Below are positions 3,346 to 9,082 of a DNA stretch of 9,082 nt, one piece after another. The stretch is from Candidatus Tectimicrobiota bacterium (GTDB lineage Bacteria; JACPSX01). Each line of letters opens with the position of its first letter. The first letter of the stretch is position 1. The position numbers and the translations under genes were made by a program. Where the stretch lies: assembly GCA_016193065.1 (NCBI GenBank), contig JACPSX010000056.1:1-9082 (forward strand), read 5' to 3'. A model generated the notes under the pieces. That model had not been told where the DNA came from. It saw only the letters and a program-made list of their open reading frames with translations, and did no database searches.

Positions 3346-6300
3346 ATGAAACGGCGGGAGCTGGGACAATCACTGGCGGCGATCTCGATCCTGTTCTTGG
3401 TGATTCTTCCTGTCCTGGCGGACGCTGGGACTATTTCCGCGGCGGCAAACCCCGCTCCCGGGGTTTCCCGCGTGGCTTACAACAAGTTGCCCCTGATCTT
3501 TGAAGCGAACCGGGGGCAGACGGATGCTCAGGTAAAGTTTCTTTCCCGAGGCCACGGTTATACCTTGTTCTTGACTTCCACGGAGGCGGTGCTGGCTTTA
3601 CGCAAGCCTCAGGCCGCTGCCCAGAAACTCGATTCCACTCTTTCTCCCTCTCCTCGTGTGAAGGGCTCTCTCCCACTGGCTTCCCCGAGGGCGGAGGATC
3701 GTGCCTTGTCTACTCCCCCGAGCCCGGAGGGTTCTCTTAAATCCCTTCCGACGGCTGAAGGGGATTCTCCTTTGTCCCCTCCCCCCACCGCGGGGGAGGG
3801 TCAGGGTGGGGGGGCCGTCCTGCGCATGAAGCTTGTGGGCGCCAATCCTGATCCCCGGGTAGTGGGGCGGGAGGAGCTTCCCGGCAAGAGCAACTACTTT
3901 ATCGGCAACGATCCGAAGAAATGGCGCACCAACGTCAGCACCTATGCCCGGATCGAGTATCGAGACGTCTATCCCGGAGTGAATCTGGTCTACTACGGAA
4001 ACCAGGGGCAACTGGAGTACGACTTTATCGTCGCCCCGGGCGCTGATCCCGCCGCCATTCGGCTCTCGATCGGGGGTGCGGACAAACAGGAGATCGACGA
4101 TCAGGGTCATCTCGTTCTGCACGCCGCAGGCGGACAGATCCGCCTCCACAAGCCCCTTGTCTATCAAGAAGTCGACGGCGTCAGAAAGTTCATCCCCGGC
4201 CGCTACGTGCTCATCCCTTCATCTTTATCCCTTCTCCCTTCGGGAGAGGGTCAGAGCAAGGGTACGATTCGGATCGGCTTTGAAGTGGCCGCCTACGATG
4301 CGAGCAAGCCTCTCGTCATCGATCCGGTGCTGAGCTACTCCACCTATTTGGGCGGCACCGGCGCGGATTTCGGCAACGGCATCGCCGTGGATTCCTCCGG
4401 AAATATGTATGTGACGGGCTATACTGCGTCGGCCAACTTTCCTACAGCAAATCCTGTCCCGCCTGGACTCAATGCTGGCGGCTACGATGCCTTCGTAACG
4501 AAGTTGAGCGCCACTGGTGCGCTTGTTTACTCCACGTACCTGGGCGGCAGCGGAGACGATCGGGCGAACGGCATTGCCGTGGACGGTGTCGGCAACGCGT
4601 ACGTGGTCGGCTCAACGAACCCGCTAGACCATCTCTATTCAAACGACTTCCCCACGAAGGAGGCCTTACAGGCCCAGTTCGGTGGCCATACGGATGCCTT
4701 CGTGACAAAACTGAACGCTTCCGGTGGGCTTGTTTACTCCACCTACCTGGGCGGCCTTGATTACGACGGGGGGTTCGGCATTGCCGTGGACGCCGCTGGG
4801 AATGTGTACATTACCGGTGACACATGGTCCGACACCTTTCCTACAACGCCGGGCGCCTTCCAACCTGCACTCAGCGGACCCGCGCAAATTGACGCCTTCG
4901 TGGCCAAGTTGAATGCCGCCGGTTCCGGGCTGGTCTATTCCACCTACCTGGGCGGAAACGGCGGCGTACCCGGCTATGGCATTGCCGTCCATGGCTATGG
5001 CATTGCCGTCGACGCTTCCGGGAATGCCTACGTGACGGGAGATGTTAACAACGGATGGGAACCCGATCGCACCAAGCTGCATTTTCCCACGGTCAATGCC
5101 TTTCAGGCTACCTACGGCGGTGGCTCATTCGATGCTTTCGTAACGAAGCTGAATGCCTCCGGTTCTGCTCTGGTCTACTCGACCTATCTGGGTGGCAGCG
5201 GCCAGGAGCATGGTTATGGCATTGCTGTGGACGGCGCCGGCGCCGCCTACGTGGCGGGTTGGACTCTATCGAGCGACTTCCCGACGAGGGCGGGTTCTTT
5301 TCAGACCGTGTACGGCGGTTCCACGGATGCCTTCGTAACGAAGCTGAGCGCCACGGGTGGGCTTGTTTACTCGTCTTACCTGGGCGGTAGTTTCTATGAC
5401 GAAGGCTTCGGCATCGCCGTAGACGCTTCCGGCAATGCCTACGTGACGGGTTGGACCGGGCAGACATTTACAACGAACAACTTTCCTACGGTGAATCCTT
5501 TCCAGACTGCGATGAGCGGGTTCACTGACGCATTCGTAGCCAAGTTAAATGACGCCGGCTCGGCCCTGGTTTATTCCACCTATCTGGGCGGCAGCGGCGG
5601 CGAAACGGGCTTTGGCATCGCCGTGGATGCTTCCGGCAACGCTTACGTGACGGGCTCCACCGGTTCGAGCAACTTCCCGACGACGTCTGGTCCGTTTGGG
5701 CCCGGAGGTGGAGATGACGCCTTCATAGCGAAAATCACCGCTGCCGTTCCCAACCGGGATCCGGTAGCCGACGCAGGTCCGGATCAGACCGTGGAAGGGA
5801 CCAGTCCCTCGGGGGCTAGGGTGACCCTGGACAGCTCCGGATCAAGCGATCCCGATGGTGATGTACTCACTTACACGTGGATTGAGTCTGGCAATATGAT
5901 CGGTTCCGGTAAAACCATAGCGGTTACTCTATCCATGGGGACCCATGTCATTACTCTCACCGTGGATGACGGCAAGGACGGGACAGCTTCAGACACCGTG
6001 ACCGTGAAGGTACAGGACACGACTGCTCCCCTCATCTCCTCCGTCTCGGCCAGTCCGAGTGTTCTCTGGCCCCCGAACCGCCGGATGGTTCCGGTGACCG
6101 TGGCTGTTTCCGTCTCCGACATTTGTGATGGTGCGCCCAGATGCCGGATCGTGTCTGTGACCAGCAACGAGCCGGTAAGCGGACTCGGCCGGCGCGACAG
6201 GACCCCCGACTGGGAGATCACCGGAGACCTTACGATGAACCTTAGAGCGGAGCGTTCCGCAAAGGGGAGAGGGCGTGTCTACACGATTACGATCCGGTGC

Positions 6301-6384
6301 GCCGACGCCTCGGGAAATAGCTCGACGAAGACCACCACAGTGACAGTTCCGCACAAGAAACCGAAAAAGGAGAAGAAACGGTAA
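3346..6384 (+). CDS. Exported seven-bladed SBBP beta-propeller protein with PKD and LWPPN modules
   Basis: The product is 1012 residues. Residues 1-27 are a signal peptide (MKRRELG, then a hydrophobic AAISILFLVILPVLA). Residues 45-325 form an N-terminal DUF7948-like domain: LPLIFEANRGQTDAQVKFLS, GKSNYFIGNDPKKW, YPGVNLVYYGNQGQLEYDF and the closing ASKPLVIDPVLSYSTYLGG. Seven SBBP repeats follow, each with YS(T/S)YLGG, GIAVD.(S/A)GN.YVTG and DAF(V/I).K. Their YSTYLGG motifs fall near 331, 395, 464, 531, 611, 675 and 743, enough for one complete seven-bladed propeller. Residues 803-890 are a PKD domain (PVADAGPDQTVEG to VTVKVQD). Residues 900-1002 are the LWPPN module (LWPPNRRMVPV, SNEPVSGLG, LRAERS). 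The last ten residues are almost all basic (KKPKKEKKR). The N-terminal domain is interrupted by two low-complexity insertions that coincide with palindromic DNA repeats (residues about 93-156 and 291-306). The role is probably surface adhesion or matrix structure; no enzyme motif is seen. Domain calls are strong; the function is inferred. Confidence 0.95.
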   Translation: MKRRELGQSLAAISILFLVILPVLADAGTISAAANPAPGVSRVAYNKLPLIFEANRGQTDAQVKFLSRGHGYTLFLTSTEAVLALRKPQAAAQKLDSTLSPSPRVKGSLPLASPRAEDRALSTPPSPEGSLKSLPTAEGDSPLSPPPTAGEGQGGGAVLRMKLVGANPDPRVVGREELPGKSNYFIGNDPKKWRTNVSTYARIEYRDVYPGVNLVYYGNQGQLEYDFIVAPGADPAAIRLSIGGADKQEIDDQGHLVLHAAGGQIRLHKPLVYQEVDGVRKFIPGRYVLIPSSLSLLPSGEGQSKGTIRIGFEVAAYDASKPLVIDPVLSYSTYLGGTGADFGNGIAVDSSGNMYVTGYTASANFPTANPVPPGLNAGGYDAFVTKLSATGALVYSTYLGGSGDDRANGIAVDGVGNAYVVGSTNPLDHLYSNDFPTKEALQAQFGGHTDAFVTKLNASGGLVYSTYLGGLDYDGGFGIAVDAAGNVYITGDTWSDTFPTTPGAFQPALSGPAQIDAFVAKLNAAGSGLVYSTYLGGNGGVPGYGIAVHGYGIAVDASGNAYVTGDVNNGWEPDRTKLHFPTVNAFQATYGGGSFDAFVTKLNASGSALVYSTYLGGSGQEHGYGIAVDGAGAAYVAGWTLSSDFPTRAGSFQTVYGGSTDAFVTKLSATGGLVYSSYLGGSFYDEGFGIAVDASGNAYVTGWTGQTFTTNNFPTVNPFQTAMSGFTDAFVAKLNDAGSALVYSTYLGGSGGETGFGIAVDASGNAYVTGSTGSSNFPTTSGPFGPGGGDDAFIAKITAAVPNRDPVADAGPDQTVEGTSPSGARVTLDSSGSSDPDGDVLTYTWIESGNMIGSGKTIAVTLSMGTHVITLTVDDGKDGTASDTVTVKVQDTTAPLISSVSASPSVLWPPNRRMVPVTVAVSVSDICDGAPRCRIVSVTSNEPVSGLGRRDRTPDWEITGDLTMNLRAERSAKGRGRVYTITIRCADASGNSSTKTTTVTVPHKKPKKEKKR
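3622..3813 (+). repeat. In-gene GC-rich repeat cluster (about five degenerate units)
   Basis: Inside the DUF7948-like domain, conserved sequence stops after LALRKPQAAA and resumes at AVLRMKLVGANP. The 64 residues between are Pro/Ser/Gly/Glu-rich, in roughly 11-13-residue units: SPSPRVKGS, ASPRAEDRALS, PPSPEGSLKS, LPTAEGDSPLS and PPPTAGEGQGGG. At DNA level each unit has a C/T-rich half followed by a G/A-rich half. The last unit is a near-perfect palindrome: CCCTCCCCC (3777-3785) and GGGGGAGGG (3792-3800) with a six-base loop, followed by TCAGGGTGGGGG. The array is a multiple of three with no stop, so the gene remains intact. Confidence 0.8.
4216..4263 (+). repeat. Second in-gene palindromic repeat copy
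   Basis: A CCCTTCTCC arm, a TTC-type loop and a GGGAGAGGG arm (4229-4250; nine pairs, one G-T wobble) are followed by TCAGAGCAAGGG. They encode PSSLSLLPSGEGQSKG between GRYVLI and TIRIGFEVAAYD, where members of the family would be expected to have a short turn. The GEGQ reading is shared with the palindrome at 3777-3800, so these two copies are translated in the same frame. Confidence 0.8.
4972..5010 (+). repeat. 21-base tandem duplication in propeller blade 4
   Basis: GGCTATGGCATTGCCGTC occurs at 4972-4989 and again at 4993-5010, a period of 21 bases. It duplicates YGIAVHG in frame, giving GYGIAVHGYGIAVDASGN, whereas each other blade has a single GIAVD strand. It is a recent slippage-type event that lengthens one blade by seven residues. 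Confidence 0.95.
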
Positions 6385-6593
6385 GATAAGGATTACGGGC
6401 CCCCTGGAGCAATTCCCAGTCCAAGGGGAAAAAGCCGAGGTGGTATTCGGGCTTGACAGGAGCGGGAAAATGTTAATAATTGCGCCTAGTTCCGTGTCTA
6501 GCCCAACGGCACTATCCGCTCCCTTCCGGAATATCCCGGCGCTGAGTCGTGGACTTGGTGTCTTTGCCTTGTATACTCTCTCGGTGAGCCGCC
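6385..6593. other. Intergenic region between propeller and ATPase genes
   Basis: This 209-base gap carries a weak hairpin (CCCCCTGGA 6400-6408 with TCCAAGGGG 6420-6428, one mismatch). The hairpin is followed by A residues and not T, so it is not a standard terminator. The gap also carries the promoter at 6453-6480. A second -10-like TATACT (6572-6577) lies close to the start codon but lacks a partner -35. Confidence 0.6.
6453..6480 (+). promoter_or_regulatory. Sigma-70-like promoter for the ATPase/TPR operon
   Basis: A perfect -35 TTGACA (6453-6458) is separated by 16 bases from AATAAT (6475-6480), five of six matches to TATAAT, in locally A+T-rich DNA. Transcription would begin near 6487, leaving a leader of about 105 bases before ATG 6594. 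It is the best-matching promoter in the window. Confidence 0.7.
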
Positions 6594-8219
6594 ATGTATA
6601 AAGCGTTCTTTGGGTTCAAGGAGCAGCCGTTCAATATCTCTCCCGATCCCCGCTTCTTGTTCTTGAGCCGGACCCATGAGGATGCTTTCAATCAGGTCGT
6701 TTATGGGATCCGGCAGAGGCTGGGGTTTATCCGGGTAGTGGGGGAAGTGGGCACGGGGAAGACGATCCTTTGCCGACACCTCTTGAGCAAGCTGGCGGAC
6801 GAAGCAGCCACAGCGTACATCTTCAACCCTTTCCTGTCACAAATTGAGCTGCTGCGCGCCATCAACCAGGATTTCGGCCTCCCGGTGGCAGGAGGCGAGT
6901 CGGAGAAACAGCTCGTTGAAGACTTGAACGGGTTCCTGATGGCCAGGCAGGCCGCGGGGCGCAATGCGGTCCTGATCCTCGATGAAGCCCAGAACCTGGA
7001 AGACAAAGTGCTCGAGCAGATCCGCCTGCTCTCCAACCTGGAGACCGAGCGGGAAAAGCTCTTGCAGATCGTCCTGGTGGGCCAGCCGGAGCTGGAGGCC
7101 AAGCTGGAGAAAGTCCACCTGCGCCAGCTCGATCAGAGGATCGCCATAAGGGTTCATCTACAAACCCTCAACCTCGAAGAGACCGAGCGGTATATTGCCC
7201 ATCGTCTTTCCATCGCGGGCGGGCGGGGAAACTTCCAGTTTCTCCCGGAAGCTTTCAGGGAAATTTTCCGGCATACCCAGGGAGTACCACGCAAGATCAA
7301 TCTCCTTTGCGACCGGATTCTTCTGTTAAGTCTGGTGAGAGAGACCCGCAGCATTGACGCGAGGGCGGTGGAAGCTTCGGCAAAGGATCTGGGATGGAGG
7401 CAGCCCTCACTTTCCGGAGTTCAGTTTCCCCGCTTCCGGACACCGGCAGTGCTGCGCTGGGGCCGGGCGGCCGCAGTTTTGATTTTTCTGGTGGGTGCAG
7501 CGGTTCTCGGCCATGAAATTGCGGGGAAAATGGATTTTCTCGGCAAGGCTGTCGGGAAACTGCGTGGGGAAGCGGTTACCGCAACCGTCTCGGCAAAGGC
7601 CGCGACGCCGGGGAAAGCCGAGGTAGCCGATGCGGACAGGGAGTGGCGGCTGCAGCGCCTCTGGTCCATCCGGGAGCAGCTCAGACTTGCTGTGCTTAAG
7701 GGAGGACAGCATCTCTCGACTGCGGAGCTGGCGGATCAATATCGGATGAAAAGCATGACAGTAACGCTGACGGACTCACCACCCCAAGCGATTGCTGAAC
7801 CCGTCCTCATGCAGGGTTGGGCCCAGGGGACGGATCGGCCCGAGTTATGGGTGGTGTCCAGGGCTTCAGGAGCAATGCTGGAAGTTTACGATGGACAGAC
7901 CAAAGAACTGAAGATAGAAGAGCCCCACCTGGTTCCCGGCAAACCCGTTACCCTGTTCTTGTTCTATGAGTCCAGGCCGGGCGAAGATCGAATCCTGGTG
8001 GCGGGAGATTCCGGGCCGGAGATCGAATGGCTGCAGAGACAACTGAAAGAACTTGGTTACTACCGAGGGGCCATCAATGGGCTCTTCGATGAGGAAACCC
8101 GGGCCGCAGTGAAGCAGGTCCAGAGCCAGCACGGGCTCGACAGCGACGGGATCGCAGGTCCACAAACCCAGATCCTGTTAACCCATCTGGCGGGACGGCC
8201 GGAGAAATCGAAGGGCTGA
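6594..8219 (+). CDS. GspA/ExeA-like AAA+ ATPase with transmembrane helix and peptidoglycan-binding domain
   Basis: The product is 541 residues. It opens with the typical YKAFFGFKEQPFNISPDPRFLF of ExeA-type ATPases. Residues 50-57 are Walker A (GEVGTGKT), 125-133 are Walker B (AVLILDEAQ), and 161-167 (LVGQPEL) lie at the sensor-1 position; VPRKINLLCDR (231-241) marks the lid. Residues about 285-306 are one transmembrane helix (RWGRAAAVLIFLVGAAVLG). After a linker, residues about 350-460 occupy the place of the degenerate C39-like domain of GspA, with no catalytic Cys-His pair seen. Residues 473-534 form a PG_binding_1 domain (EIEWLQRQLKELGYYRGAING, then DGIAGPQTQ). The layout is a cytoplasmic ATPase with a periplasmic peptidoglycan-binding tail. 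GspA works with GspB to place the type II secretin through the cell wall, and a similar role is likely here. The start ATG 6594 is preceded only by a weak GGTGAG. It is co-transcribed with the next gene. The distinction from related pilus or exosortase ATPases rests on the peptidoglycan-binding tail. Confidence 0.92.
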   Translation: MYKAFFGFKEQPFNISPDPRFLFLSRTHEDAFNQVVYGIRQRLGFIRVVGEVGTGKTILCRHLLSKLADEAATAYIFNPFLSQIELLRAINQDFGLPVAGGESEKQLVEDLNGFLMARQAAGRNAVLILDEAQNLEDKVLEQIRLLSNLETEREKLLQIVLVGQPELEAKLEKVHLRQLDQRIAIRVHLQTLNLEETERYIAHRLSIAGGRGNFQFLPEAFREIFRHTQGVPRKINLLCDRILLLSLVRETRSIDARAVEASAKDLGWRQPSLSGVQFPRFRTPAVLRWGRAAAVLIFLVGAAVLGHEIAGKMDFLGKAVGKLRGEAVTATVSAKAATPGKAEVADADREWRLQRLWSIREQLRLAVLKGGQHLSTAELADQYRMKSMTVTLTDSPPQAIAEPVLMQGWAQGTDRPELWVVSRASGAMLEVYDGQTKELKIEEPHLVPGKPVTLFLFYESRPGEDRILVAGDSGPEIEWLQRQLKELGYYRGAINGLFDEETRAAVKQVQSQHGLDSDGIAGPQTQILLTHLAGRPEKSKG

Positions 8220-8227
8220 AGGGCAGG
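8220..8227 (+). promoter_or_regulatory. Ribosome binding site of the TPR gene
   Basis: AGGGCAGG starts one base after the ATPase stop codon and lies about 10 bases before ATG 8238. This supports a two-gene operon with an 18-base gap. Confidence 0.65.
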
Positions 8228-8237
8228 AACTGTTCTC

Positions 8238-9082
8238 ATGAGCATCATCCACGAGGCGCTAAAAAAGCTGGAGCGGCAGGGCACCCAACCGGACCCGTTC
8301 TTGCCGGCCTTGAGAGATTCCTCAAATCAAGCCGGTGATGTGCGGCGCGGGTGGAATGGGAGAACGTGGATGCTGGCTGTCCTGCTCCTGCTGAGCTTTA
8401 TCGGCGGTGGCCTGTGGGCGACACTGAAGCCTGAACAATCCCCGTTGCCGGGCGAGGCTATGACGGCATCCTCACCTGTGGTCCCTCCGCCGCAGGCGGT
8501 ATCCCCCCTCACCCCGCCCCTCTCCACGCCCAAAGGGCACCCGGGGTACCCGGGGGAGAGGGTAAGTGAGGAGGATGCGCTCCTTCCCTCCAGAGAGAAG
8601 GTAGGCGAGGGGGCGTTGCCCTCTCGCTCCAGAGAGAGGGTAGGGGAAAGGGAGTTGTCCTCTCCCTCCACGGAGAGGGGAGAAAAAATGGTTTCCCCCT
8701 CCGGGGAGAAAGTGGAGTCAGGGACTTCTGCCTCGGCCGGGAGGACTCCGGGAACCGGGGGACAAAAAGCAAAGGCAAGAGGAGGGAGCGGAGGGATCGT
8801 GTCTGAAGCGCCGCAGCGGGTCCACGTCCCCACGGTTGCCTTTTCGAGTCCACCCAAGTTGAAAATTCCCGTGTTGCCGAAGAAGGAGGAGGGGAACGTT
8901 CCGGAGCCCGGGAATGCGGAGGAATATTTTCGCCGGGGCGTTCAGCTCTGGAAGGAAAAGAACGTTCCCGAGGCGGCAAAAGCCTTCGAAAAAACTCTGG
9001 AGCTCAACCCGAAGCTCGCCGAAGCCGCCAACAACCTGGGGAACCTCTACTTTGAGCAGAACCTGTTCGAGAAAGCCATTGA
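8238..9082 (+). CDS. Membrane-anchored TPR protein, GspB-like N-terminus (3' end outside window)
   Basis: The frame is open from ATG 8238 to the window edge, giving 281 codons with no stop, so the gene is incomplete. Residues 1-12, MSIIHEALKKLE, are a characteristic cytoplasmic start of proteins partnered with GspA/ExeA-type ATPases. Residues about 43-62 form one transmembrane helix (WMLAVLLLLSFIGGGLWA). Residues about 89-165 are a low-complexity Pro/Ser/Glu/Arg-rich linker made of repeats (see 8503-8727). Residues about 225 to the end begin TPR repeats: AEEYFRRGVQLWKEKNVPEA, then AFEKTLELNPKLAEAANNLG and NLYFEQNLFEKAI. The layout suggests an inner-membrane protein whose TPR part is periplasmic, acting as the partner or adaptor of the ATPase encoded 18 bases upstream. 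It differs from textbook GspB in carrying TPRs. Function is inferred from the N-terminal motif and context. Confidence 0.85.
   Translation, partial: MSIIHEALKKLERQGTQPDPFLPALRDSSNQAGDVRRGWNGRTWMLAVLLLLSFIGGGLWATLKPEQSPLPGEAMTASSPVVPPPQAVSPLTPPLSTPKGHPGYPGERVSEEDALLPSREKVGEGALPSRSRERVGERELSSPSTERGEKMVSPSGEKVESGTSASAGRTPGTGGQKAKARGGSGGIVSEAPQRVHVPTVAFSSPPKLKIPVLPKKEEGNVPEPGNAEEYFRRGVQLWKEKNVPEAAKAFEKTLELNPKLAEAANNLGNLYFEQNLFEKAI
8503..8727 (+). repeat. In-gene palindromic repeat plus 39-base tandem array
   Basis: The first unit (8503-8572) has CCCCTCACCCC and CCCTCTCC on the left and GGGGGAGAGGGTAAGTGAGG on the right, around a 20-30-base centre. Three 39-base units follow exactly: 8577-8615, 8616-8654 and 8655-8693, then a shortened one from 8694. 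Each reads C/T-rich, CTCCA or similar, then GAGAGGGTAGGG-like. Translation gives 13-residue units ALLPSREKVGEGA, LPSRSRERVGERE and LSSPSTERGEKMV, then SPSGEKVESG. The frame differs from that used in the propeller gene: GAG-AGG-GTA here, GGA-GAG-GGT there. Confidence 0.85.

Follow-up and report, generated by a model that had tools for sequence, protein, structure and literature searches.

The E. coli repeat known as BoxC, as the PIT element or as the TM_ECO intrastrand-triplex motif has been reported in 262 proteobacterial genomes and is always intergenic in E. coli (Holder et al. 2015, PMC4666352). Its published pattern is CCCTCNCCC-N3-6-GGGNGAGGG-N3-GGGNGAGGG, and folding as a triplex in solution has been demonstrated for the E. 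coli sequence only (PMC4666352). It has so far been regarded as an intergenic oddity to which neither a mover nor a role had been assigned. In-frame palindromic inserts are already established for the GTAG- and CGTC-tagged REPs, which are also short palindromes, mostly intergenic with an in-frame minority, but which form a hairpin of other sequence, whereas BoxC has three arms (Di Nocera et al. 2013, PMC3733652). The Rickettsia palindromic elements (RPE) are likewise palindromic DNA inserted in frame into unrelated proteins; they differ from BoxC in that they are unrelated in sequence, belong to other bacteria and, in the case of RPE-1, are longer. REPIN/RAYT systems likewise consist of dispersed short hairpins, often in inverted pairs, but a RAYT gene flanked by BoxC was not found here.

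The window analysed is a stretch of 9,082 nucleotides from the draft genome of a Candidatus Tectimicrobiota bacterium (G000; 2.9 Mb, 294 contigs, 86% complete). An earlier note on this DNA had proposed that one palindromic repeat, made of two arms, a loop and a tail, had entered two unrelated genes in frame at 3622-3813, 4216-4263 and 8503-8727. A literature search on the arms identified the repeat as BoxC/PIT/TM_ECO (PMC4666352). The note had not recognised this known family, nor that the tail is, judged from its sequence, the third, reverse-Hoogsteen strand of a class II intrastrand triplex motif. Arms, spacing, loop sizes and subtypes are the same as in E. coli; the differences are that BoxC also lies within genes here and that a long-loop subtype is present. 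No GTAG or CGTC tag was seen at the ends of the aligned copies, and an Rfam search of the window returned no match. The rickettsial precedent that the note invoked is established, and BoxC shows the same behaviour, namely one DNA repeat found in unrelated proteins, with the frame kept, and missing from homologues.

Copies in the window were detected with a covariance model (R1) trained on six copies from elsewhere in the same genome, with no window sequence included; one of the six training sequences carried one extra G, which left the window copies unaffected. R1 matched the window at 3777-3812 (38.5 bits, E 1e-8), 4230-4262 (28.9 bits) and 8619-8652 (28.5 bits), and on the minus strand at 8506-8562 (35.8 bits; 8506-8537 with filters off, 26.7), with weaker units at 8582-8611 (15.6 bits) and 8659-8678 (about 10 bits). 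A 21-mer pattern with at most three mismatches gave 3 matches in the window vs 0.01 expected. All three proposed locations were confirmed by R1, with two amendments: only 3777-3812 is recognisable within 3622-3813, and 8503-8727, BoxC-like as claimed, is not one copy but an array of a long-loop copy and about four units. The copies are read in two different frames (GEGQ and GERV), exactly as the note had stated. The hairpin energy of the short copies was unexceptional against shuffles.

The TM_ECO pattern, with one substitution allowed, matched 24 times in the fetched stretches of G000 and not once in the reversed control. The copy at 3777-3812 fits it with one substitution, whereas in the rest of the window copies the sequence has decayed or the loop is long; nine of nine base triads are intact at 3777-3812, five of nine at 4230-4262, and between 5 and 8 of 9 in the in-gene window copies other than 3777-3812. 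Among 98 aligned copies, the third-arm triads were of an allowed type (G*G.C, A*A.T, T*A.T) in 748 of 827 cases against 706 +/- 4 in shuffles, a figure that is optimistic and indicative since the shuffle control ignores kinship among copies. Two triad positions switch jointly between T.A*A and C.G*G, and 3777-3812 has such a switch in all three arms. In the alignment, changes in the hairpin stem are accompanied by matching changes in the third arm, as expected of a class II intrastrand triplex, and this covariation of three strands supports the triplex model independently, from sequence.

The first host gene (3346..6384, plus strand) encodes a secreted protein of 1012 aa with a DUF7948 domain (Pfam PF25778, E 2e-65), an SBBP beta-propeller (E 1e-58) and a PKD domain, and it carries two inserts on the plus strand. 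The first occupies 3625..3813 (189 nt, 63 codons) and contains the BoxC copy at 3777..3812; the rest of it, 3625-3776, is inserted sequence of a composition similar to BoxC, too decayed to be proven a copy. It was delimited by alignment with a homologue in G044 found by tblastn, in which the DNA matching residues 14-93 and 157-337 is contiguous, with zero bases between, and the gap corresponds to window 3625-3813; G044 has no BoxC match in its genome. The second insert (4216..4263; 48 nt, 16 codons) contains an older copy at 4230..4262. Here the segment between two anchors, compared on the basis of a single conserved stretch, measures 31-33 aa in most of 79 relatives and 47 aa in the window gene. 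The possibility raised in the earlier note, that orthologues would all carry the same residues, does not hold for the relatives aligned, which lack them.

An AlphaFold model of the DUF7948 domain, built from 44 sequences (mean pLDDT 80.8; mostly above 90 outside the two regions named next), placed both segments in regions of lower confidence. The pLDDT was mostly 41-66 over residues 61-130, which include insert 1 (residues 66-128), and insert 2 (263-278) falls within a turn of reduced confidence (263-280) between the predicted strands E257-262 and E281-286 of a beta hairpin. Alignment and model together give good support to reading both segments as insertions into predicted loops, with the qualification that the relatives compared are not very close ones.

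The second host gene (8238..9080, plus strand), which ends at the window end, encodes a membrane helix, a linker and a TPR domain (E 1.5e-10). It is preceded by an ATPase gene (6594-8219) with AAA_22 and PG_binding_1 domains; we take the two proteins to be MshN-like and ExeA/MshM-like, respectively. The linker contains a BoxC copy with a long loop and two tails, one on each side (8503..8566; DNA fold -18.1 kcal/mol, z -2.7), followed on the plus strand by about four decayed BoxC-like units arrayed in a single frame (8582..8706). The unit cores lie at 8588, 8627, 8666 and 8699, that is, at spacings of 39, 39 and 33 nt, all multiples of three, which suggests that the array grew by in-frame tandem duplication. 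The 27-nt loop of 8503-8566 is identical in an intergenic copy on another contig (L091:1620-1677) and recurs with small changes in L066 and L116. This identity between a copy in the TPR gene and an intergenic one is direct evidence for copying as DNA. In L255, a relative in which the gene order is the same, the low-complexity linker is of the Ala/Pro/Lys type and has no BoxC, which does not make it a true empty site; a protein search for orthologues of the TPR gene returned generic TPR matches only, and a search of viral contigs found nothing.

The distribution of BoxC in the rest of the genome was then considered. A 22-mer pattern matched 69 times genome-wide against 9 in the reversed control, and R1 at E <= 0.001 gave 98 matches in the fetched G000 stretches, which merged into 79 places. 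This abundance of about 80 copies, mostly intergenic, removes the doubt, voiced in the earlier note, that no further copies might exist. The places comprised 64 intergenic, 11 touching a gene end and 4 well inside genes, in stretches that are 81% coding, so genes are strongly avoided and copies survive in linkers. These counts rest on gene calls from a home-made hexamer caller, which missed the cut-off TPR gene; its two places were added by hand, giving about 6 internal places of the 79, in four genes (TPR array included). The hosts are the DUF7948/SBBP gene (two sites), the MshN-like TPR gene, a TonB-like gene (L081) and a gene for an RDD membrane protein (L095), and in the last three the copy is in a low-complexity linker that joins a folded domain to a membrane or metal-binding part. 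Three long open frames spanning BoxC (L082, L088, L080) were rejected as hosts, having no Pfam match and a weak or negative coding signal.

In-gene copies were more numerous in a second genome, G029, which has 114 BoxC matches. In 40 fetched stretches (90% coding), 54 places were found, divided into 10 in-gene, 12 at gene ends and 32 intergenic. The in-gene hosts include a NirB nitrite reductase, a DASS symporter, an FMN_bind-ApbE protein, an NHL protein, an RHS protein and a cyclic beta-1,2-glucan synthase-like GH94 protein with two copies. When the symporter, the GH94 protein and NirB were aligned to solved structures (VcINDY for the symporter), the BoxC segment lay either in an alignment gap or between the domains that aligned. 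A UDG insert (L315) was discarded as an in-gene case since it precedes the conserved domain and may lie upstream of the true start. In E. coli, the best BoxC match overlapped no annotated feature in any of 20 records sampled across the ranking. The rule that BoxC is always intergenic holds for E. coli and not for G000 and G029.

The DUF7948 loop was further examined in 82 DUF7948 loci (442 kb), where only two places beyond the window scored well for BoxC, both at the site-2 loop. One of them (L155, in G041) is a clean 36-nt BoxC insert, and a tandem paralogue in the same genome (L171) is empty at this site with closely aligned flanks, which indicates that the L155 insertion was independent. 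The other (L177), from a groundwater deltaproteobacterial MAG (G060), has a near-consensus BoxC after YVL, where the contig ends. G041 and G060 have two BoxC matches each, and the second in G060 is in an N6-methylase (HsdM) gene. It occupies the C-terminal coiled-coil linker of this type I restriction enzyme (L287:1501-1534); the gene was rejected as a clean empty/filled pair, as the linker of a homologue with 60% identity is about as long but unrelated. Entry into the same DUF7948 beta-hairpin turn at least twice, possibly three times, raises the idea that BoxC prefers certain targets, which we consider improbable at present. Such recurrence at one turn, with BoxC otherwise almost absent from G041 and G060, would imply a mover that is active and chooses its targets.

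The same two DUF7948 sites carry other simple-repeat-like DNA (ACTCAAAACTC, CAAAATCTAAAATC, AGTCAGAAGTCAGG and similar) at L178:972-1070, L211:3256-3345, L241:921-1079 and 1464-1619, and L238:3280-3351, and repeats in general may land in both loops. A further G041 paralogue (L160:1513-1596) has AATCCCCCTCAAATCCCCCTTTTGTAAAGGGGGAAAAAGGGGGATTT at site 1, another three-part purine/pyrimidine palindrome. The segment GTCATTGCGAG...AATCTC at site 2 of the G041 paralogues L164, L169 and L173 resembles known REP/RPE sequence; it was rejected as a second repeat family, not being multicopy in G041.

The obtained results make it very probable that BoxC/TM_ECO copies were inserted as DNA into two window genes, in loops or linkers, with the frame kept. 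Spread as DNA rather than as peptide follows from the use of two frames, from the 27-nt loop shared with an intergenic copy and from the empty site in the tandem paralogue (L155/L171), and both this claim and that of in-frame entry into two unrelated hosts, the DUF7948/beta-propeller gene and the TPR gene, were borne out. A copy would be made and pasted by some route, and selection would then remove most insertions into genes. The survivors would be those of a net length divisible by three, read in any of the four to five frames that are free of stops in this G+C-rich element, and placed in a surface loop, a beta-hairpin turn or an interdomain linker. The consensus element has stop codons in only two of six frames and codes for Gly, Pro, Ser, Glu and Arg, which makes it tolerable in loops. 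The short Pro/Ser/Gly/Glu/Arg segments so encoded are probably tolerated, not useful, and some sites, such as that in the TPR gene, may later enlarge by in-frame tandem duplication. The data can be accounted for without giving either the peptide or the in-gene DNA structure a function.

The segments might instead be ordinary low-complexity Pro/Ser/Glu linkers that are alike by composition, as their position where length varies among relatives and the unexceptional hairpin energy of the short copies would allow. This is extremely unlikely, being already contradicted by the dispersed intergenic copies and the shared 27-nt loop, and the excess of pattern matches, the two reading frames and the clean L155/L171 empty site also speak against it. 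It is also very unlikely that in-gene copies keep their DNA structure because it serves a purpose, for instance by adjusting expression or generating variability; the full set of triads at 3777-3812 speaks for it, but the other in-gene window copies have decayed, and in earlier work BoxC was found not to affect transcription (summarised in PMC4666352). A more substantial alternative, still the less probable one, is that the DUF7948 gene already carried the site-2 insert when it was inherited or transferred, and the insertion took place elsewhere than in this genome. L177 is 70% identical to the window gene in the conserved part and has BoxC at the same loop, in the same orientation and frame. 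However, the two copies have junctions that differ by some 15 nt, the copy in L177 is much nearer to consensus, the paralogues in the L177 genome have no BoxC at this loop, and L155 gained a copy of its own.

Insertion of BoxC as DNA leaves the route of movement to be considered. The earlier note pointed to a REP-associated (RAYT/TnpA_REP-type) single-strand transposase, as is thought for REPs. Y1_Tnp genes are present in the window's genome (two) and in all seven BoxC-rich genomes checked, tending to higher numbers there, yet the gene neighbourhoods lend this no support, as no strong or convincing BoxC copy was found beside these two or beside about 50 others in 11 other genomes. The BoxC-free genomes G044, G046 and G057 also have Y1_Tnp, and BoxC lacks the GTAG tag of RAYT-linked REPs; we therefore judge this mover unlikely. 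One RAYT-like Y1 transposase gene of G000 (L032; Y1_Tnp match G000:C67:394-717) has no BoxC nearby. Spread with no transposase, by replication template switching or by repair at triplex-forming DNA, is a tentative possibility. Such triplex motifs have been linked to instability in E. coli (PMC4666352), and the apparent in-frame tandem growth at 8582-8706 would fit this route, but it does not readily account for the many dispersed copies per genome or for an insert of 36 nt that enters a new site cleanly.

The presence of in-frame BoxC in conserved enzymes of several uncultivated lineages implies that BoxC moves, and the filled and empty sites allow its insertion chemistry to be read. BoxC can further be regarded as a widespread source of new protein loops and linkers. 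The literature covered, which was incomplete and is no proof of priority, held no report of in-gene BoxC in several lineages, of recurrence at one loop, of the long-loop subtype or of three-strand covariation. Elsewhere in the window, 2245-2844 encodes a secreted 199-aa protein with no Pfam match, and the neighbouring secreted proteins at 3-1310 and 5755-6380 share a PKD-type C-terminal module, in which a K319L-like PKD comes before a segment that contains an LWPPN motif.
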